Origin: Oscillatoriales cyanobacterium CG2_30_40_61
Lineage (GTDB): Bacteria; Cyanobacteriota; Cyanobacteriia; Cyanobacteriales; Microcoleaceae
Length of the DNA: 64,000 bases
Direction of reading: 5' to 3'
Assembly (NCBI GenBank): GCA_001873365.1
Contig: MNYZ01000012.1
Location: forward strand, 26,243 to 90,242
Positions within the stretch are counted from its first letter, which is position 1. Each line of letters starts with the position of its first letter. Shown here one piece after another: positions 45,520 through 55,328 of the stretch. The position numbers were made by a program, and so were the translations under genes. The notes below the pieces were generated by a model. It did not search any database and was not told the origin of the DNA. It saw only the letters and a list, made by a program, of their open reading frames with translations.

Positions 45520-47712
45520 ATGACAACAACAATACCCGAATTTTGTCAAGGAATTCAGTATTTTAAAGACAGTTTCCCCGAATATGACCGCTATGGGAAT
45601 AGCCCAATTATTGCTGAAAATAGTGTATCTATTTCCGATGCAAATGATCCTACTGCCGCCTATCAAACCTTACTTTACGCCGATGCCCTGCGATATCTAA
45701 CCTTACAAATCACCGCTAGTAAAGCATCAGGACACCCGGGGGGATTTGCTTCTAGTGTGGAAGCCTACGCTGCCTTGGTGATGCTGGGTCATAAAAATAT
45801 TATGACGGAAGTGGGACACCACGCCCCAGGCTTTTACAGTGCGGTGTTTTTGGATCGCTCCCTAGAAGATATGGGCATTGTCACTGTCCAACAATTGCGC
45901 GATCGCTTCCGCGAAAAACATGGACTGCTTGGCCACCTTTCCGGCTTTATTCCTGGCCTGCTCAACCCCGCCGGGCCCTTGGGACAGGGACAACATTTTG
46001 CCATGGCCGCCGCCCTGCTACACCGAAACGTCCTATTTCCGTTCACTCTCGGCGATGGAGGCATGGGCGAACCCTACCCCATGAGTAGCATGATGCACTT
46101 CCATACCGCCTATCCTGAAGTGACTAATTTCTTGCCCGTGTTGGTATGGAACGGTTACAGTCAAGAGCATCATAGCATGGTTTCCACGAAAACTAATGCA
46201 GAAATGATTGCCTACTGGAAAGGAAATGGATTTTCAGAAGTAATTTTAGTCGATGCTAAGGATTTTGACGATCAAAATCAACCAGGTGATTATGTTGATA
46301 GTACGGCCTTTTCTATTAATAAACGGATTGAATTTACCCAAGCCATTTTAGTCGCTATGGATAAAGCTGCAAAATCTGCTTTAGGTGGTCAATTAACCGT
46401 GTTTATTATTAAACAATTGAAAGGAGCAGGGGTTCACGCCCGGGGTGCAAAATCCCATAATCTTTATCCAGGGGATACCTTAGATAGTCCCCATATTATT
46501 AGCGCTTTAAAAGAACGGGCCTTACCTGTGGCGGCTTGGGAATTAGTGCGGACAAATTTAGAACGTTCCAGTGGTGGGCCAGCAGCTAAAACCGTTGTCA
46601 CGGAGTTTGATTACTCTTTAGCTGATCTCGGTCAACTCCCCTTAGAAGAATATCCCGTGGGCGGTGATCCCAAGGTTTCTACAACAGCAATGGGGGCATT
46701 AGTTGTTCATGTCGGGCAAAAAGATCCCCATTTTATTGTTACCAATGCTGATGGGAATGCGGCTTCTGGAATTAACAATATTAACCAGGGATTAAAGATT
46801 ATTCACCCGACAACGGATAATACTTATTTTCAACAACCCCAAGGTCAAGTTTATGAACCCTTAAGTGAGGATGCTTGTGCCGGGTTAGCCGTGGGATTAT
46901 CCCTATTAGGAGCCAGAACTTTATGGTGTTCTTATGAGTCTTTTGCGATTAACGGGGTTCCAATTTTGCAAACCGTCGCCCAAGCCATGGCCGAGTTACG
47001 GCGGGCTACCCCCTCAACGGTCTGTTTATTCACCGCCGGAGCCTTAGAACAGGGTCGCAATGGTTGGACACACCAACGGCCGGAAATTGAGGCCTATTTC
47101 GCCGCTATGATGCGCAGTGGTAACGTTTTCCCGGTGTTCCCCCCCGATGCTAATAGCATTCAAGTGTGCTATGATTGGGCTTTAACTACCAAAAACAAGA
47201 GCATTATTATTACCGCCAGTAAGTCCCCCCTACCCATCCGCACGACGTTTGAGCAAACTCGCCAAGGGTTAAAAGATGGGGCGGTGGTGTTACAGGAAGT
47301 CCCCGGGGATAAAACCGTGGTGTTTGCGGTAATTGGGGATATGACCTTAATTCCGGTGTTTGAAGCGGCGGCATTTTTGGAAACCGAAGGAATTGGGGTG
47401 CGAATTGTTTCTATGATTAACCCTCGGCGTTTATATCGTTCTCACGATGTTTTATCCGAGACTTGTTCCGAACCCGATAACGATTTTGCCAGTGATGAAA
47501 CCTTTGATAAATTGTTTGCTGGAGATGCCTTAATTGGGGTGACAGGAGGTTCTAGTTTGATGTTGGAACCGATTATGTTACGCAGCAATTCTAAGCGGGA
47601 TACCTTTGCTTGGAAACGGGGGGAAACCACCGCCAGTGCTGGGGAGTTAATGGCATTTAATGGGATTACTTCGGAGGCGTTGACGAAACGAGCGATTGAG
47701 TTAATTCACTAA
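45520..47712 (+). CDS. Phosphoketolase/transketolase-like thiamine diphosphate enzyme
   Basis: 730 residues, between a transketolase (about 665) and a classical phosphoketolase (about 800). N-terminal SKASGHPGGFASSVEA is transketolase-like; VGHHAPGFYSAVFL and NGWTHQRPEIEAYF plus VFPPDANSIQVCYDWAL are phosphoketolase-like. The ThDP motif is GDGGMGEPY...N. It resembles cyanobacterial proteins annotated as a second phosphoketolase, whose activity is debated. It would split xylulose-5-P to acetyl-P and glyceraldehyde-3-P if active. Likely metabolic; regulation unknown. Confidence 0.8.
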   Translation: MTTTIPEFCQGIQYFKDSFPEYDRYGNSPIIAENSVSISDANDPTAAYQTLLYADALRYLTLQITASKASGHPGGFASSVEAYAALVMLGHKNIMTEVGHHAPGFYSAVFLDRSLEDMGIVTVQQLRDRFREKHGLLGHLSGFIPGLLNPAGPLGQGQHFAMAAALLHRNVLFPFTLGDGGMGEPYPMSSMMHFHTAYPEVTNFLPVLVWNGYSQEHHSMVSTKTNAEMIAYWKGNGFSEVILVDAKDFDDQNQPGDYVDSTAFSINKRIEFTQAILVAMDKAAKSALGGQLTVFIIKQLKGAGVHARGAKSHNLYPGDTLDSPHIISALKERALPVAAWELVRTNLERSSGGPAAKTVVTEFDYSLADLGQLPLEEYPVGGDPKVSTTAMGALVVHVGQKDPHFIVTNADGNAASGINNINQGLKIIHPTTDNTYFQQPQGQVYEPLSEDACAGLAVGLSLLGARTLWCSYESFAINGVPILQTVAQAMAELRRATPSTVCLFTAGALEQGRNGWTHQRPEIEAYFAAMMRSGNVFPVFPPDANSIQVCYDWALTTKNKSIIITASKSPLPIRTTFEQTRQGLKDGAVVLQEVPGDKTVVFAVIGDMTLIPVFEAAAFLETEGIGVRIVSMINPRRLYRSHDVLSETCSEPDNDFASDETFDKLFAGDALIGVTGGSSLMLEPIMLRSNSKRDTFAWKRGETTASAGELMAFNGITSEALTKRAIELIH

Positions 47713-47795
47713 TATTTTCTGAGATTAATTCCCAGAATTAACCCGATTCCCTGGTTATTTTATGGAATCGGGTATCTACTAATATTAATCTCCTG

Positions 47796-48800
47796 CTAGG
47801 ATTCAGTCACCTTACCTCTAAACACCACATAGTTATAGATATTGTAAAACAACATAATGGGAATTAGAAAACCAATAAAAGTGATCATGAACACTAACGC
47901 GCTAGGGGAAGCAGCAGCTTGATAAATGGTGATAGAAGGAGGAATAATATAGGGAAAAACTATTAATCCTAAACCGATAAATGTGATCAAAAAGATTAAA
48001 ATTGTCCAGATAAAGGGTGTTGTTTCCTCCCGTCGCTTCAGACTTCTTAATAGTAAACCAACAAAAAGAAGACCTAAAATTGGAATCACCGCAAACACAT
48101 AGATTTCTGGCTCATGAAACAACTTATTTCGGATATTTTCAGAAACAAAAGGCGTTGTAATCGTGATTAAAATTGCACCGACTAATGTTGTTAAAGCAGC
48201 CAGTTTAGCAGTGCGATAATGGATTACTTGTAACTCTCCCTGAGTCTTCATAATTAAATAGGTAGAGCCAATTAAAACATAACCCTGAATTAAAGTTAGC
48301 GCCACCAATAGCGATCGCCAATCTAACCAATCCCACATTCCTCCGGTAAAATGTCCAAGCTCGTCTACTGAAATCCCCTGTAACACTCCTCCTAATGCAA
48401 ACCCTTGAGAAAGTGCAGCTAAAAAACTCCCCGCTCCAAAGGCAAAATTCCAGAGTAATTTGTTATTAGCGTGTTCTCGAAACTCAAAAGCCACCGCCCG
48501 AAAAATCAATCCAAAAATCATCCCAAAAATGGGAATATAAAGAGCATTTAGGATAGTAGCATAAGCTAAAGGAAACGCCCCAAATAAAGCACCCCCCATT
48601 AACACTAACCAAGTTTCATTAGCATCCCAAACATTGCCCAAACTGGTCATCAAAATACTACGGCGTTGTTCATCAGAACTGGTGAGAGATAAAATTCCTA
48701 CCCCTAAATCAAACCCATCCAACATCACATATAAAAGCAGGAAAAGGGCTAGAATTACAAACCAAACCTGATCCAAAAAATGCGTCAAACTATCCATCAT
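47796..48800 (-). CDS. cydB: Cytochrome bd quinol oxidase subunit II
   Basis: 334 residues with eight or nine membrane segments. Starts DSLTHFLDQVWFVILALFLL, followed by MLDGFDLGVGILSL and LGNVWDANETWLVLMGGALF, the conserved signatures of CydB. The cydA gene is 4 nt upstream, so the two are one operon (cydAB). The enzyme reduces O2 with plastoquinol. Which membrane it sits in (thylakoid or plasma) is unknown. Confidence 0.95.
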   Translation of the reverse strand: MMDSLTHFLDQVWFVILALFLLLYVMLDGFDLGVGILSLTSSDEQRRSILMTSLGNVWDANETWLVLMGGALFGAFPLAYATILNALYIPIFGMIFGLIFRAVAFEFREHANNKLLWNFAFGAGSFLAALSQGFALGGVLQGISVDELGHFTGGMWDWLDWRSLLVALTLIQGYVLIGSTYLIMKTQGELQVIHYRTAKLAALTTLVGAILITITTPFVSENIRNKLFHEPEIYVFAVIPILGLLFVGLLLRSLKRREETTPFIWTILIFLITFIGLGLIVFPYIIPPSITIYQAAASPSALVFMITFIGFLIPIMLFYNIYNYVVFRGKVTES

Positions 48801-48804
48801 TCTC

Positions 48805-50244
48805 CTATTGTTGAGTTTCTAAAGGGCGACTATCAGGTATATGCGTAGCTGGAGTTGTCTCTAATACCAGTTTTTCTTCCCCAGGAATTGGTAGTTCTAA
48901 ATTCGGCCCATGGCGAATAATTCGACTGCCAAAATAGAGGGCAGAAATTAATAAAATTGTGTAAATTGTTGTAAATACTAATAACGAGCCTAAAACCTCT
49001 CCTGGCGGTAAATGAGACGCTGCATCAACGGTGCGAATTTGCCCATAAACCGTCCAGGGTTGTCGTCCCACACAACGCACAATCCAACCCGATTCAACTG
49101 CAATATATCCCAAAGGAGCGGCAAACAACCAAGCGCGTAATAACCAACGTTGTTGAGGAATTTCTGAAGCTGATAATTTTCCTCGCCACCATTGCAATAC
49201 AGTAACTAGCATTAAACCCGCCAAAAAGAAACCAATCCCACTCATAATCCGAAAGGCATAATAAATCAATCCCACCATCCGAGGACGGTCTTCAGGTTTC
49301 CAATATTTCAGACCTAAAACTGGTTCAGAGAGTTCTTTTTTAAACTCTAATACATATCCTAAACCGTTGGGGATTGACAATTCCCAATCATTTTTTTGGG
49401 CTTTTTCATTAGGGAATGCTAACAGCGTCCAATCAGCAGTTTCTCCGGCGGGAGTCGTTTCCCATTTTGCTTCTATTGCTGCTAATTTAGTCGGTTGATA
49501 ATGATAGACTTGTTCAGCACTTAAATGACCAATATAAATTTGTAGGGGAGTGACCGCAATTGTCGCCGCTAAGACAATTTTGAAAGACTTAGCAAAAAAA
49601 GCTGGATGGCGTTGATTCAAAATATACCAAGCACTAATTCCACCAATTACAAATAGGGAGGTTTCTAGGGTGGCGAAAAACATATGGAGAAAACTTTTCG
49701 CCATAAATGGATTTAGAATGGCTTGAAAGTAGTCATTAACGATAAATTTTCCGTTAACTAATTCTGTCCCCGATGGAGTTTGTAACCAGGAATTAGCGGT
49801 TAAAATCCAGAAGGTAGAAAGATTCGCCCCAAATGCGACCATGATAGTTGCTAGGTAATGAATCCCTGGATTAACTCGCTCCCAGCCAAATAGCATAATT
49901 CCTAAAAATCCGGCTTCTAACATAAAAGCCATGGAGCCTTCAAAGCCTAAAATACTCCCAAAAAAATCTCCGACTGCTTCTGAAAAGGGCGCCCAGTTTG
50001 TACCAAATTGAAATTCCATTGGTAAACCGGATGCTACACCAATTCCAAAGTTAAGAACATAGAGTTTTGACCAAAATCGGGCATGATAATAGTAATCTCG
50101 ATTGCGAGTTTTTAACCATAAGCCTTCGACAATCACTAAATAAATTGCCATTCCGGTTGTTAGCACTGGCCACAACATATGAAAAATTGCAGTCAAGGCA
50201 AATTGAATTCGTGACAAAACCACGGTATCAGACAAAAATTCCAT
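48805..50244 (-). CDS. cydA: Cytochrome bd quinol oxidase subunit I
   Basis: 479 residues, short Q-loop form. Signatures: SRIQFALTAIFHMLWPVLTT (His axial ligand region), WSKLYVLNFGIGVASGLPME, EFQFGTNWAPFSEAVGDFFG and ESGWIVRCVGRQPWTVYGQI (GRQPW). The bd-type oxidase is a high-affinity, cyanide-tolerant terminal oxidase; in cyanobacteria it relieves over-reduction. It starts about 90 bp after a palindrome (50332) that may be its operator. Confidence 0.95.
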   Translation of the reverse strand: MEFLSDTVVLSRIQFALTAIFHMLWPVLTTGMAIYLVIVEGLWLKTRNRDYYYHARFWSKLYVLNFGIGVASGLPMEFQFGTNWAPFSEAVGDFFGSILGFEGSMAFMLEAGFLGIMLFGWERVNPGIHYLATIMVAFGANLSTFWILTANSWLQTPSGTELVNGKFIVNDYFQAILNPFMAKSFLHMFFATLETSLFVIGGISAWYILNQRHPAFFAKSFKIVLAATIAVTPLQIYIGHLSAEQVYHYQPTKLAAIEAKWETTPAGETADWTLLAFPNEKAQKNDWELSIPNGLGYVLEFKKELSEPVLGLKYWKPEDRPRMVGLIYYAFRIMSGIGFFLAGLMLVTVLQWWRGKLSASEIPQQRWLLRAWLFAAPLGYIAVESGWIVRCVGRQPWTVYGQIRTVDAASHLPPGEVLGSLLVFTTIYTILLISALYFGSRIIRHGPNLELPIPGEEKLVLETTPATHIPDSRPLETQQ

Positions 50245-50331
50245 GTTTATCTCTATCAGTTCATCGATGGTTATAGTAACATGATTCGACTTTAAAAGTT
50301 AATTCTTCCGGAATTTCTTAAGGTTTTATTG

Positions 50332-50348
50332 TTTGACATTTTGTCAAA
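50332..50348. promoter_or_regulatory. Palindrome TTTGACAttTTGTCAAA upstream of cydAB
   Basis: A 17-bp inverted repeat (TTTGACA TTT TGTCAAA) followed by a third TTGACAAAAT half-site, about 88 bp upstream of the cydA start on the minus strand. Position and symmetry suit a regulator site overlapping a -35 element. Regulator unknown. Confidence 0.4.
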
Positions 50349-50419
50349 TAATGTTGACAAAATTTATTTCCATTTCAACATATTTAGCAACGATTTTGCT
50401 CTACTTAGGCAAACAATAG

Positions 50420-50621
50420 AGCCCGGTCGGGCTCACTACTAGGGTATGGCAATTGTCCTTAATAACTGTTCAATAATTGTTTTTGCCCGCCTTCCTCCGG
50501 CTGGAATTAAACGATGGGATAAGACATGGGGCGCTAGGTATTTCACATCATCCGGTGTGCCATAATCCCTACCTAATAAAAAGGCTAAGGCTTGAGTGGC
50601 TCGATGTAAAGAAATTGCACC
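50420..50621 (-). pseudogene. Duplicate of the moxR 3' end and its terminator
   Basis: Positions 50429-50621 match 51194-51386 (the last ~60 codons of moxR and the start of its 3' UTR) with 5 differences in 193 bp, all synonymous in the moxR frame. The fragment has no start codon and is cut off at 50621 just before the RelE gene. The terminator palindrome in this copy is AGCCCGgtCGGGCT (50420-50433). Confidence 0.9.
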
Positions 50622-50629
50622 TTGTGTTT

Positions 50630-50899
50630 CTACAATTGATCAAGCAGCATATCGTATTCTGCGTGAGAACCAACCCAGAACCAGATTACAGTGTCTTCAT
50701 CTAATTGACCGACTGCTCGATATTCTCTGTTAATTCGTGCAGAATAAATTGGCAATTTGGGATGGACTTTTTTGAATCGCAAGCTGGGATAACTTGGATC
50801 TTGCTTGAATTGCCGATAGGCCTTACGGGTTTGTTCCTGAACCTGTTCTGGTAGATCGGCAAACATTTTACGAAATTGAGTGGTTGTACGAGATTTCAC
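50630..50899 (-). CDS. RelE/ParE-family toxin
   Basis: 89 residues. RelE fold pattern: KSRTTTQFRKMFADLPEQVQ, then SLRFKKVHPKLPIYSARINR, EYRAVGQLDEDTVIWFWVG and HAEYDMLL at the C terminus. Its start overlaps the antitoxin stop by 4 nt (ATGA-type). Likely a ribosome-dependent or free mRNA endonuclease or a gyrase toxin. It sits between the two moxR copies. Confidence 0.85.
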   Translation of the reverse strand: MKSRTTTQFRKMFADLPEQVQEQTRKAYRQFKQDPSYPSLRFKKVHPKLPIYSARINREYRAVGQLDEDTVIWFWVGSHAEYDMLLDQL

Positions 50900-51114
50900 A
50901 ATGTTTCTGGATCTAACTCTTGCGTTTTACCTGCACGGTATTCAGCCATCGCCTCGGCTGCAAGCTTAGATAACAGATCTGGGGAACGAGTAAATGACTC
51001 ATCCCAGCGACGCTCATCTTCAAGTTCTTCTAGGATCATTGTTGCGATCGCATCCTGCTGACTAGAAGGTAAGGTTTTTAATCGGGCAATTACACATTCA
51101 AGTAGCTCAGTCAT
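50896..51114 (-). CDS. Antitoxin of the RelE-type pair
   Basis: 72 residues, acidic, helical: ECVIARLKTLPSSQQDAIAT, MILEELEDERRWDESFTRSP and AEAMAEYRAGKTQELDPETL. The C-terminal AGKTQELDP pattern is common in cyanobacterial antitoxins. It is the first gene of the pair, with a 4-nt overlap with the toxin. Codon use is like the neighbours. Confidence 0.8.
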   Translation of the reverse strand: MTELLECVIARLKTLPSSQQDAIATMILEELEDERRWDESFTRSPDLLSKLAAEAMAEYRAGKTQELDPETL

Positions 51115-51184
51115 ATTTGATATCTAAATATTGATGTTGATAATCCTATGGCGATATGTTGTTGCGCTTCAGCCCATCCTAGAG

Positions 51185-51198
51185 AGCCCTAAAGGGCT
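51185..51198 (-). terminator. Palindrome AGCCCTaaAGGGCT after moxR
   Basis: A 6-bp perfect stem immediately 3' to the moxR stop. In the duplicated copy it is AGCCCGgtCGGGCT: one base pair is exchanged T-A to G-C and the loop changed, a compensatory change that supports pairing in vivo. Confidence 0.6.
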
Positions 51199-51203
51199 CA
51201 CTA

Positions 51204-52112
51204 CTAGGGTATGGCAATTGTCCTTAATAACTGTTCAATAATTGTTTTTGCCCGTCTTCCTCCCGCCGGAATTAAACGATGGGATAAGACATGGGGCGCT
51301 AGGTATTTCACATCATCCGGTGTGCCATAATCTCTACCTAATAAAAAGGCTAAGGCTTGGGTGGCTCGATGTAAAGAAATTGCACCGCGAGGACTCACCC
51401 CCAATGTGATTTCATCCGATTCTCTGGTGGCTCTAACTAAATTCAGAATATACTGTTGTAATGAGGTTTCAATCTTAATTTGACGACACCAATTTTGAAT
51501 TTCTAATACCTGCTCCTGAGAAATACAAGGTTCTAAATCATCTACCGTTATGCCATTAGATAATCCTTGCAACATTTGCAATTCTTCCGCTTCCGTGGGA
51601 TATCCTAATGTTAGGGATAATAAAAATCTATCCATTTGGGCTTCGGGTAAAGGAAATGTTCCTTGATATTCAATCGGGTTTTGAGTTGCTATCACAAAAA
51701 ACGGTTTAGGAACTAACCGAGAAATTCCATCAACGGTAACTTGTCTTTCTTCCATTACTTCTAATAATGCCGACTGGGTTCGAGGCGTCGCCCGGTTAAT
51801 TTCATCCGTTAATAAAATATTAGTAAAAATCGGCCCGGGTAAAAATTCAAATTCCCCGGTGCGCGGGTTCCAAATATTAGTTCCGGTGATATCTGTAGGT
51901 AGTAAATCCGGTGTACATTGTATTCGATGAAACTGTCCTGCTATGGAACGAGCTAGGGATTTTGCCAGTAAGGTTTTACCCACACCCGGAACATCTTCTA
52001 GTAGGGCATGACCCCCGGCTAATAAAGCTACTAATGTCAGCCGAATGGCGTCTTCTTTGCCTACAATTGTCCGGCTTAAATTCTGTTTTAGATGTTCAAT
52101 TTGTTGTTTCAT
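51204..52112 (-). CDS. MoxR-family AAA+ ATPase
   Basis: 302 residues. Walker A EDVPGVGKTLLAKSLA, Walker B NILLTDEINRATPRTQSA, sensor 1 FFVIATQNPIEYQGTFPLPE (ATQNP, the MoxR signature), arginine finger region MDRFLLSLTLGYP, and the C-terminal lid (LGVSPRGAISLHRATQALA). MoxR proteins act as chaperones for metal-cofactor or secretion assemblies, often with a vWA partner; no vWA or DUF58 neighbour is visible here. The gene's 3' end is duplicated at 50420. Confidence 0.93.
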   Translation of the reverse strand: MKQQIEHLKQNLSRTIVGKEDAIRLTLVALLAGGHALLEDVPGVGKTLLAKSLARSIAGQFHRIQCTPDLLPTDITGTNIWNPRTGEFEFLPGPIFTNILLTDEINRATPRTQSALLEVMEERQVTVDGISRLVPKPFFVIATQNPIEYQGTFPLPEAQMDRFLLSLTLGYPTEAEELQMLQGLSNGITVDDLEPCISQEQVLEIQNWCRQIKIETSLQQYILNLVRATRESDEITLGVSPRGAISLHRATQALAFLLGRDYGTPDDVKYLAPHVLSHRLIPAGGRRAKTIIEQLLRTIAIP

Positions 52113-52172
52113 GGGATATTTTTATTGAGGGTAAGACAAAATGCACTTGTGTCAATTATAATCCTTGGTGAA

Positions 52173-52202
52173 AGAGAGACGCGCCGTGGCTCGTCTCTAC
52201 GT
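52173..52202. repeat. Dispersed AGAGACG palindrome beside the ribF stop
   Basis: GAGAGACGCGCC / GGCTCGTCTCTAC, the inverted counterpart of the element at 29761. It ends at the stop of ribF. Confidence 0.5.
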
Positions 52203-53263
52203 TACGTTGGGTGTAGTATTTCCTTGGCTTGTAAACAATCAGCCTTAATTTGAGTTTTGAGGGCCTCTAAAGAAGTGAATTTCTGTTCTGGTCGCAGGAA
52301 TTCTTCTAGGCTAACATTTAAGGTTTTACCATATAAATCCCCCGACCAATTTAACAGATGAACTTCTACGGTGACGTTTTCACCTGCTACCGTTGGACGA
52401 CAGCCAATATTCATCACCCCCGGATGATTTACTAACTCAAAATTAGCATCACTTCCGGTTTTGGTGAGTGATTTTATCCCCATTTCCGATACTTTTACCG
52501 CATAAACCCCATAGCGAGGTAAGAATTTTTCCGGGGGTAATTGTAAATTAGCTGTGGGAAATCCGATAGTTCGTCCTAACTGTTGACCCTGAACCACTGA
52601 CCCGACTACATGATAGGATCTTCCTAATAATTGATTGGCTCGACTAATCGCACCTTGTTCTAAGGATATCCGAATTTCTGAACTACTAATCCGTTCGCCA
52701 TTTTCACATAAATATAAAGGAACCGTCTGTACCTCAATTCCGTAATTCTCGGCAACTTTTTCTAAATCCTTAACAGTTCCAGCCCGGTTTTTTCCAAAAT
52801 GAAAATCAATTCCCACACTAATATAATGGGGTTGCAATTTTTGAATTAAAATCTTTTCTACAAATTCTACTGGAGATAAATCCGCCATTTGTTGATCAAA
52901 AGGCAACAAAACCAACTGTTTTACTCCCATTGTTTTTAACCATTCAGCTTTTTCATCTAGGGGAGTTAGTAACTTTTTGGGTTGACCTGTAAACAGTTCT
53001 TGAGGATGGGGATGAAACGTCACTACGGTACTATAACCGAGTTCCGATTCTCCTAAATTACTATCCAATGGAAATCTATCCCGCGTCAACTGGGCGACGG
53101 GGTTAGCTAAAAGCATCTCTGTCCGTTGTCGGGAATCAATTGGCGGTCTTACATTTAAAATCGGCTGAATCACCTGTTGGTGGCCACGATGTAAGCCATC
53201 AAAGTTCCCTAAAGCAACGGCAGTAGGCGTTAATATACTATCGAGCGATGATGTTATCCACAC
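52202..53263 (-). CDS. ribF: Bifunctional riboflavin kinase / FAD synthetase
   Basis: 353 residues, longer than typical (about 310) because of a charged insert (IDSRQRTEMLLANPVAQLTR, about residues 45-75). FAD synthetase domain: AVALGNFDGLHRGHQQVI (HxGH site), STVVTFHPHPQEL and DFHFGKNRAGTV. Riboflavin kinase domain (about 220-353): GRTIGFPTANLQLPPEKFLP, YGVYAVKV, IGCRPTV. It makes FMN and FAD from riboflavin. Confidence 0.95.
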   Translation of the reverse strand: MWITSSLDSILTPTAVALGNFDGLHRGHQQVIQPILNVRPPIDSRQRTEMLLANPVAQLTRDRFPLDSNLGESELGYSTVVTFHPHPQELFTGQPKKLLTPLDEKAEWLKTMGVKQLVLLPFDQQMADLSPVEFVEKILIQKLQPHYISVGIDFHFGKNRAGTVKDLEKVAENYGIEVQTVPLYLCENGERISSSEIRISLEQGAISRANQLLGRSYHVVGSVVQGQQLGRTIGFPTANLQLPPEKFLPRYGVYAVKVSEMGIKSLTKTGSDANFELVNHPGVMNIGCRPTVAGENVTVEVHLLNWSGDLYGKTLNVSLEEFLRPEQKFTSLEALKTQIKADCLQAKEILHPT

Positions 53264-53336
53264 GCTTTACATTTTTACATAATTTGGAAATTTGCGATCG
53301 CTATTGTCAGAAAATCTGGTTAAATTAACCATAGAG

Positions 53337-54227
53337 TTAGGCTGGTTGTGATACAGGAGGACTGGAAATCGAAGGGGAACTTAACTGAATCGATAATCCT
53401 TCCCGGGCGATTAAACTATTAGGAAATCTTTCCGCTACTTGTTCCCCGACCTTATCCATAAAATCATCATTATGTAGGGGGTCATGGTGGAAAATAACTA
53501 ACCGTTTAACATTGGCCGCTTTTGCTACCTTGACCGCTTCTTGCCAAGTAGAATGTCCCCAACCTACTTTACTGGTTTTTTCAGAATGATATTGTTCATC
53601 ACTGTAGGTAGCATCGTAAATTAAAACATCAGCATCCCGAGCTAAAAATAACACATTTTCATCTAAGCGATCGGGAAAATGTTCTGTATCACTGACATAA
53701 GCCGCGGCATAATTATGCCAATTGACTCGATATCCTACCGCTTCCCCCGGATGATTTAATAAAGCTGTTTCCACAACAATATCATCGCTAATTTTAATCG
53801 ACTTACCCACATTAATATCAACAAACTTTAAATCTGCTCCCATAATTTGTAACGGAACCGGAAAATTAGGATGGAGCATTTGATCATTCAAACGATGCTG
53901 CACCGTTGAACCGTCGGGGGCAATAGTACCATAGATATAAAAAGTATTAATTTTAATAAAAGCAGGAACAAAAAACGGAAATCCCTGAATATGATCCCAA
54001 TGATAATGACTAAAAAATAAATGCCCGGTTACAGGCATTTGAGATAGTAAAGATTGTCCGAGGACTCGTAAACCCGTACCTCCATCAAAAATTAATCGTT
54101 CCGAACCCACTCGCATTTCAACACAGGGAGTATTTCCCCCGTAGCGGACTGTTTCCGAGCCCGGACACGCGATGCTCCCTCTGACTCCCCAAAAGTGAAC
54201 CGTGAACTGGCTTTGTAAATTAGACAT
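53337..54227 (-). CDS. MBL-fold metallohydrolase
   Basis: 296 residues. Metal-binding pattern FSHYHWDHIQGFPFF (HxHxDH), then DTEHFP, and a late HHDPLHNDDFMDKV with the last His ligand. YDATYSDEQYHSEKTSKVGW is typical of the cyanobacterial MBL family with unknown substrates; close relatives of RNase Z-like or cAMP phosphodiesterase families are possible. Cytosolic. Confidence 0.85.
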   Translation of the reverse strand: MSNLQSQFTVHFWGVRGSIACPGSETVRYGGNTPCVEMRVGSERLIFDGGTGLRVLGQSLLSQMPVTGHLFFSHYHWDHIQGFPFFVPAFIKINTFYIYGTIAPDGSTVQHRLNDQMLHPNFPVPLQIMGADLKFVDINVGKSIKISDDIVVETALLNHPGEAVGYRVNWHNYAAAYVSDTEHFPDRLDENVLFLARDADVLIYDATYSDEQYHSEKTSKVGWGHSTWQEAVKVAKAANVKRLVIFHHDPLHNDDFMDKVGEQVAERFPNSLIAREGLSIQLSSPSISSPPVSQPA

Positions 54228-54449
54228 AGGTGTTAATTGCTAGTTGGAGTTAGGTGGTTGAGTGGGTTAGGTTAATTATAATTAAGTTTTGGCTAGAAAA
54301 CTTAATCGGAATCGACTAAAGATGCCAGTTGATCTTGTATCAATATTAGCTAATGCAACAAAATGCCATAAACTGTCAATAATACCATTTTAATTTTAGA
54401 TCAAATTATTAAGATCACCAAACACAAGACTTAACTTGGGATTGCCAGA

Positions 54450-55328
54450 ATGGATAAAGTCAGTAAAACCCTTGATCATCTTGAGCTAATTCGGATTAGC
54501 CTCTCAACCAACGGTCAGCAACTCCTGCATCAAGTTCAAACCCTATTATATTCTAGGGATAGACTGGTTAAGGGTTCTCAACCTTTTCTGTCTTTACCAC
54601 TCAGACTTAATCTGACCCGGACTCAACCCGGTCAACGATTCCGCCACCGTCGATCTCAACGCTTGAGAAGTTGGTTATTCCTCCTAATTGTATGCGGAAT
54701 TTGGGGTTGGTGGAATAGCAAACTTTTATTTTCAACCGCTTTGGCGATGGTGGTCATGGGTTGGGTATACCGTCTGCGGGAACTTCCGATTAACTTCAGT
54801 AAATGGGACTGGTATCAACACCTAGAAAAATCTCAACGTCAATTTTTATTGGCGGTGGGGAGTGGGGTAAGTTCCGGGATATTTCTCTATATTTGTTTAT
54901 CGATTTGGACAAGTTCCGAGAGTCCAGAAATGGCATTAACTATAATTGGACAAAATTTAGGGATTTTAGGAATTTTGGGCTTAATTATAGGGCAATGGTA
55001 TCAACAGAAATCCGATTTAGGTAAATCTAAACTAGACCAATGGTTGGCAGATTTAACCCAAGATAATAGTCTGAAACGCTTGATTGCTGTCCGTCAAATT
55101 ACCCAGTCTTTTAAAAAATTTCCCCAAGGTTCAGGAAATCAGCAGTTATTATTAGAAGCCCAACGTTGGCAACCGTTACCAACTATCCAGTCTTTTCAAG
55201 GAATTGATCAAACTCATATTATTGAGTATTTTCAGTTAATGTTATATCAGGAAAATGAACCCCTCGTCCGTGAAGCGTTATGGGAAGGGTTACAAATCCT
55301 CGAACATAATTATGAACATTATTCTTAG
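54450..55328 (+). CDS. Membrane protein, unknown
   Basis: 292 residues. Basic N-terminal part (TRTQPGQRFRHRRSQRLRSW) leads to four membrane segments (LFLLIVCGIWGWW; LLFSTALAMVVMGWVY; FLLAVGSGVSSGIFLYICLS; IIGQNLGILGILGLIIGQW) and a C-terminal cytosolic HEAT/ARM-like helical stretch (DLTQDNSLKRLIAVRQITQS, NEPLVREALWEGLQILEHNY). I do not recognise the family. It overlaps nothing and is convergent with the next gene. Confidence 0.7.
   Translation: MDKVSKTLDHLELIRISLSTNGQQLLHQVQTLLYSRDRLVKGSQPFLSLPLRLNLTRTQPGQRFRHRRSQRLRSWLFLLIVCGIWGWWNSKLLFSTALAMVVMGWVYRLRELPINFSKWDWYQHLEKSQRQFLLAVGSGVSSGIFLYICLSIWTSSESPEMALTIIGQNLGILGILGLIIGQWYQQKSDLGKSKLDQWLADLTQDNSLKRLIAVRQITQSFKKFPQGSGNQQLLLEAQRWQPLPTIQSFQGIDQTHIIEYFQLMLYQENEPLVREALWEGLQILEHNYEHYS

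Follow-up and report, generated by a model that had tools for sequence, protein, structure and literature searches.

A predicted toxin-antitoxin pair between intact moxR and a silent-variant moxR end in an Oscillatoriales cyanobacterium: a candidate case of moxR-anchored integration

Background

When Escherichia coli received by conjugation a molecule homologous to its target at one end, part of the target end was duplicated in 56 of 60 clones, over 109-950 bp in the 14 that were sequenced; in the accessible part of their account, the authors interpret this as a shortened circular molecule integrating by single crossover (PMC3240628). The same part describes homology-facilitated illegitimate recombination (HFIR) as generally deleting recipient DNA of similar size, mostly with 3-10 bp of microhomology. 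Two further kinds of element bear on the locus described here. GTAG-type REPs are known from cyanobacteria, and their termini often give the flanking ORFs their TAG stop, according to the accessible text of PMC3733652; short repeats of 41-46 bp in Planktothrix are said to resemble REPs in that of PMC9366434. Type II toxin-antitoxin (TA) pairs of the ParE/RelE superfamily are the third point of comparison. TA pairs move often, and in our judgement the chromosomal entry of pairs without a mobile element of their own is seldom caught; scars of a neighbouring gene's end that differ at the level of alleles record both the anchor and the junction of such an entry event.

Here we describe a predicted TA pair in a 64,000-nucleotide stretch of DNA (the window) from Oscillatoriales cyanobacterium CG2_30_40_61 (contig MNYZ01000012.1). 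Like the E. coli single-crossover products, as far as PMC3240628 describes them, it has a partial gene end duplicated on the far side of an insert, and the 183 bp involved fall within the range of 109-950 bp; unlike that case, which concerned an engineered plasmid and conjugation, it is a natural TA segment in a cyanobacterium, has a REP at one junction and would involve a circle that is hypothetical. As in HFIR, homology on one side would be combined with a short or non-homologous join on the other, whereas the accompanying loss of recipient DNA is not visible in the window; a deletion in the recipient moxR would be hidden here, because the donor moxR would replace the lost part. As in the GTAG REP/RAYT systems of PMC3733652, a GTAG lies by a short palindrome, a REP ends at a gene's TAG stop and a RAYT gene is present in the same genome, but the gene-end scar beside a TA pair has no counterpart in the accessible part of those descriptions. 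Finally, the two overlapping small genes and the ParE-like toxin domain are those of ParE/RelE-superfamily type II pairs, whereas no model of Pfam, NCBIfam or PADLOC recognises the antitoxin at the thresholds applied.

Layout of the locus and the toxin-antitoxin pair

Read along the minus strand, the locus has the order moxR, REP, antitoxin, toxin, 183-bp moxR end, REP and cydA (Table 1); an Rfam search of 47600-54500 returned no matches. The ParE-like domain of the predicted toxin belongs to a known TA family and points to a type II pair. PADLOC gave no match to either of the two proteins, and a sequence search of the PDB with the toxin returned just weak matches to YoeB (E 0.04). Loci were given for 20 of the toxin matches listed, the window's own among them; beginning at the antitoxin start, 16 of these 20 can be aligned with the pair, a further three only in part and one not at all.

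Table 1. Features of the cydA-moxR interval, in window coordinates
Feature	Position	Strand	Evidence or remark
cydA, cytochrome bd oxidase subunit I	48805..50244	-	PF01654, 516 bits
cydA-side REP (GTAG type), AGAGCCCGGTCGGGCTCACTAC; putative left exchange point	50418..50439		119-place family; REP at same position in G001, G004, G006, G008
moxR 3'-end scar: final 60 codons and stop, without start	50439..50621	-	five synonymous differences from 51204-51386
possible microhomology GCACC (coding strand GGTGC) at scar/TA junction	50617..50621		moxR GCACC against GCGCC in TA flank of G001, as proxy
predicted toxin, ParE-like, 89 aa, GTG start	50630..50899	-	PF24732, 52.6 bits (cut-off 24.4)
predicted antitoxin, 72 aa, 4-bp overlap with toxin	50896..51114	-	16/20 toxin loci align with pair from antitoxin start
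end of longer repeat containing the moxR-side REP	51130..51204		75-78 bp matches in relatives beside moxR, cydB and other modules
moxR-side REP, AGAGCCCTAAAGGGCTCACTAC, abutting moxR stop	51183..51204		member of dispersed REP family
moxR, intact AAA+ ATPase, 302 aa	51204..52112	-	PF07726 and PF17863

Two observations concern copies of the pair elsewhere. A toxin 86.5% identical to that of the window is encoded by plasmid pB of Kovacikia minuta (Leptolyngbyales; locus L151), and thus relatives of the pair occur on plasmids. In the relative G001, a second, truncated copy of the TA region (L035, 3593-3894; antitoxin and start of the toxin, 94%) lies on the cydB side of cydAB and has the upstream flank of the window type.

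The REP family and the extent of the scar

A repeat search of the window gave one outstanding direct repeat, 50418-50621 against 51183-51386, of 204 nt and 96% identity. Of its nine mismatches, four lie in a palindrome core (50425-50428: G,G,T,C against T,A,A,A) and the remaining five in the moxR frame. The first-pass annotation had counted the palindromes as part of the duplication, extending it to 202 bp, and had taken their difference for a compensatory stem pair. The palindrome, which has a 6-bp stem and a GTAG tag, occurs at 119 places in the same genome at up to two mismatches, against none for the reversed control; it is thus short, dispersed, GTAG-tagged and present in many copies, as are GTAG-type REPs. 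The genome also encodes a predicted RAYT (L223:322-918, minus strand, contig C61; NF047646, 94.5 bits against a cut-off of 80), and a REP ends 4 bp before its start, which is consistent with assignment to the GTAG type.

Furthermore, four relatives (G001, G004, G006 and G008) carry a REP upstream of cydA at the same spot as the window; in a fifth with the same cydA (G005) that position runs into N and is unreadable. Given the dispersed family and the REP at the same spot in four relatives, the left palindrome is cydA's own, and the supposed compensatory pair is a difference between two members of the REP family. Since the left palindrome belongs to cydA, a 202-bp duplication that includes it is ruled out, and the moxR-derived scar is the 183 bp at 50439-50621, plus some part of GGGCTCACTAC, which the cydA-side and moxR-side REPs have in common.

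Silent differences and allele states in the two moxR ends

Between 50429-50621 and 51194-51386 (193 bp) there are five mismatches, exactly as claimed at first pass, with the codon pairs AGG/AGA, GCC/GCG, CCA/CCG, AGG/AGA and ACT/ACC. They fall at 51255, 51264, 51267, 51333 and 51360 in the right copy, sites at which the left copy has C,G,T,C,A. All five are synonymous, and both copies translate to the same 60 residues and stop. A 22-nt probe from the inner end of the scar finds two sites in the window at up to three mismatches, with none expected. The TA pair is thus flanked on either side by the 183-bp moxR end, an arrangement of the kind left by Campbell-type integration.

If every change had fallen in the left, unselected copy, the probability of all five being synonymous would be 0.001-0.003, and if both copies had diverged in place it would be 0.011-0.025; the earlier argument that decay in place is improbable therefore holds. 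A moxR fragment that is decaying and has collected synonymous changes by chance, or else an artefact of assembly, is accordingly a very remote prospect. There are just five differences and the source is a draft of 119 contigs, which leave such readings some room, but the former has to accept the lower of these two probabilities, and the overlaps at the junctions (~5 and 11 nt) are, judging from the assembly, too short for invention by k-mer overlap.

The intact moxR genes of the eight relatives that have the region give a further view of these sites. The state of the left copy is found among them at four of the five differing sites and that of the right copy at all five; at four sites both states segregate. 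Such sharing has a chance of 1e-4 to 5e-4 for the left states under random mutation, or 0.016-0.025 if only synonymous changes are allowed, and of 3e-6 to 1e-5 and 0.001-0.002, respectively, for the right states. As each species is represented by a single genome, the comparison offers no measure of within-species variation for these five differences. Together, the restriction to synonymous differences and the occurrence of the same states in the relatives' intact moxR favour the bringing together of two functional alleles rather than decay in place.

Import of one copy, as suggested at first pass, would place the two in different moxR clades; the trees give no confident separation. In the tree the right copy groups with G001, G002, G003 and G007 to the exclusion of the left (UFBoot 78), but a sister placement of the two copies is not rejected (AU p = 0.0795). 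Both are mostly of the type found in those four genomes, with exceptions at 51264 and 51267 in the left copy and at 51255 in the right, where they have the other type. As each copy mixes allele types, a pure two-parent reading has to assume an additional crossover or alleles outside the sample. At 51255, 51264 and 51267 all eight relatives have either C,C,C or T,G,T, while the two copies in the window have C,G,T and T,C,C. This resembles the signature of a reciprocal crossover, albeit a weak one: independent changes are as likely, because the two copies agree in type at 51251, a site that divides the relatives into the same two groups.

Distribution among relatives

The comparison set consists of ten genomes of the genus, one per species: that of the window and nine relatives, of which G005 is 73% complete. 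The 183-bp scar was found in none of the nine relatives searched, the incomplete G005 among them. Its occurrence in one genome of ten suggests that it is probably recent, and it rules out an ancient arrangement fixed in the genus, the case of relatives all carrying both copies that had been named at first pass as contrary to import.

In four relatives (G001, G004, G006 and G008) cydAB lies beside moxR, although in none of the four, which have both on one stretch, does cydA directly adjoin it. The cydA REP and the moxR stop are separated by 0.8 kb in G001, 3.7 kb in G004, 5.6 kb in G006 and 5.1 kb in G008, and the longer intervals of the last three contain TA-like genes and more REPs. G005 has cydA and a 25-nt fragment of the moxR end on one contig and its moxR match on another; this match starts at the contig end, and the moxR 3' end was not found. 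The stretches fetched from G002, G003, G007 and G009 have no cydAB. The idea of import had predicted strains in which cydA adjoins a lone moxR end and the TA pair is missing; none was found among the nine relatives, a small sample in that four of them lack cydAB there and G005 is broken at this point. In a scan of genome contigs whose output may omit records near the window's genome, the named moxR matches among the best 80 loci come from other cyanobacteria and more distant bacteria, the best being ~81% identical; the moxR end had no exact match in a search of viral contigs.

In G001 the same TA pair lies between cydA and moxR, 96.7% identical and without the scar. The TA region differs from that of the window at 16 of 485 bp and moxR at 56 of 909 (Fisher P 0.02). 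Where the window has the scar, G001 has ~190 bp of unrelated sequence, and the flank upstream of the antitoxin is different.

This arrangement is exactly the starting order that our main rival explanation calls for. In it, everything would have happened in place: starting from cydA-REP-spacer-TA-REP-moxR, the segment of TA, REP and moxR end would be duplicated in tandem, driven by microhomology, a subsequent deletion from one flanking REP (cydA side) to the other (moxR side) would leave the scar, and the differences would arise later by replacement of the moxR allele or by silent changes. Such a course is possible, if somewhat unlikely. It requires no outside DNA for the structure, the REPs on both sides share the sequence named above, and recombination between REPs is seen elsewhere, in the chimeric REP of G007 described below; yet it takes two rearrangements and a later change of allele, simple divergence would yield five synonymous differences of five only at the both-copies probability given above, and the sharing of states with relatives would be unexpected.

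The unrelated ~190 bp in G001 also lend themselves to a near like-for-like replacement, in which repair synthesis would pass from the cydA REP to the moxR REP, copy 183 bp of moxR and return at GCACC, replacing a spacer of the G001 type. We consider this template switch, or patch of gene conversion, improbable: two switches at short homologies would be needed, the differences between the alleles are not explained, and the other two TA-linked moxR scars, to which we now turn, are explained no better by it.

Other moxR-end scars at REPs

In G003, G004, G005 and G006 the last 25 nt of moxR adjoin the toxin end of a different pair, whose toxin is a ParE (PF05016) in G004, with DNA 95-99% identical in G003, G005 and G006; the four genomes have this junction in common, and it is counted once. 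In G004 and G006 the full-length moxR, the ParE pair and the scar of 25 nt have no further listed ORF of 60 aa between them, while in G003 an extra gene pair separates the scar and the ParE pair from moxR. A third pair, with a toxin of the PF24732 family (30.5 bits), lies in G007 beside the last 29 nt of moxR, ~72 kb from moxR itself and behind a gene that we take to encode a protein kinase. The 25-nt and 29-nt scars are each at a REP, and all three TA pairs have the same orientation relative to the moxR fragment.

The REP at the G007 scar (L043, 3193-3242, numbered on the reverse complement of the stretch fetched) is a chimera, with a left half of the GCG type that lies behind the same kinase-like gene in G001 and G002 and a right half of the CCC type that lies behind the G007 moxR. 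As the halves match two different REP types, the G007 junction lies inside the REP. Integration at a fixed att core was considered and is ruled out by the differing lengths of the moxR fragments (183, 29 and 25 nt).

As a control, we compared 90 REP-adjacent flanks of the window's genome, namely 88 REPs in 60 fetched regions, a part of the 119 places, and the two of the window. Only two of 4005 flank pairs reach 18 identical bases of 25, one being the moxR pair and the other a tandem pair resembling the end of a tRNA. Ten genomes were searched for a cydB end beside its REP; four have this pattern, and in all four the end is single. Duplicated gene ends at REPs are thus rare and not unique to moxR.

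Proposed integration anchored in moxR

In light of the above comparisons, we propose that the moxR end, REP, antitoxin and toxin of a related strain were integrated by way of moxR, the 183-bp fragment beside cydA probably being the recipient's own gene end left as a scar; we put the probability of this reading at about one half. In the recipient, cydA, REP and moxR would have followed one another directly, perhaps because recombination between REPs had deleted an interval that measures 3.7 to 5.6 kb in three relatives. Donor DNA would then have recombined homologously within moxR, and the donor flank past the toxin would have been joined to the recipient moxR 183 bp before the gene end, possibly at GGTGC. 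The candidate microhomology at this junction is at most 5 bp, with the G001 flank standing in for the donor. The joining might have taken place within a circular molecule, whose integration would then need one crossover, or linear DNA might have been attached illegitimately at one side; by analogy with the described systems, circle integration fits the 183-bp scar, and so does linear one-sided joining.

Counting for integration is the recurrence of the same formal architecture twice more, in the 25-nt and 29-nt moxR ends at TA pairs. Counting against it are the unrejected sister placement of the two copies, which keeps them from being confidently assigned to different clades, the shortness of the microhomology and its assessment on a proxy flank, the sampling of a single genome per species, the one or two sites of the other allele type within each copy, the separation of cydA from moxR in all four relatives with both on one stretch, and the gene pair that cuts off the 25-nt scar and ParE pair of G003 from moxR. 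The origin of one copy in a related strain's functional allele, as first suggested, agrees with the states found in relatives, the synonymous pattern and the presence of the TA pair without a scar in G001, while the clade placement and the search for a TA-free strain lend it no support.

More speculatively, and in our view rather doubtfully, the moxR 3' end and its REP might in this genus be a point at which small addiction modules enter repeatedly, every arrival being anchored in moxR and leaving its scar (183, 29 or 25 nt). Exchange between REPs would then move modules that bear such a scar to other genes, the place behind the G007 kinase-like gene being an example. The REPs, perhaps aided by RAYT, would serve as joints for the shuffling of cassettes in a system distinct from both integrons and insertion sequences. 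Three TA pairs in one genus with scars of the same gene would make both moxR-anchored entry and REP exchange directly testable.

Further modules at moxR and at REPs

The surroundings of moxR and of the REPs offer several additional observations. Close downstream of moxR in G007 lie genes for a HindIII-type restriction endonuclease (PF09518) and a DNA methylase (PF01555; L042:5531-7316, plus strand), so the spot downstream of moxR also hosts restriction-modification genes. Several relatives have a DUF433-like/DUF5615 pair, the DUF433 match being just below the cut-off, beside a REP downstream of moxR (L038:5465-6348, plus strand, and its equivalents); the N-terminus of the DUF433-like protein of G004 resembles the window's antitoxin. 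In a stretch fetched from G003 that has no cydAB, a flank like that upstream of cydA, together with its REP (L037, 5272-5341; 79% over 71 nt), is joined to a different gene end. Finally, the window's own genome has two REPs 178 bp apart at C92:45310-45800 (L174), and behind both lies one and the same flank, at least 36 nt long; this flank looks like a tRNA 3' end, and the arrangement is a tandem duplication ending at a REP.
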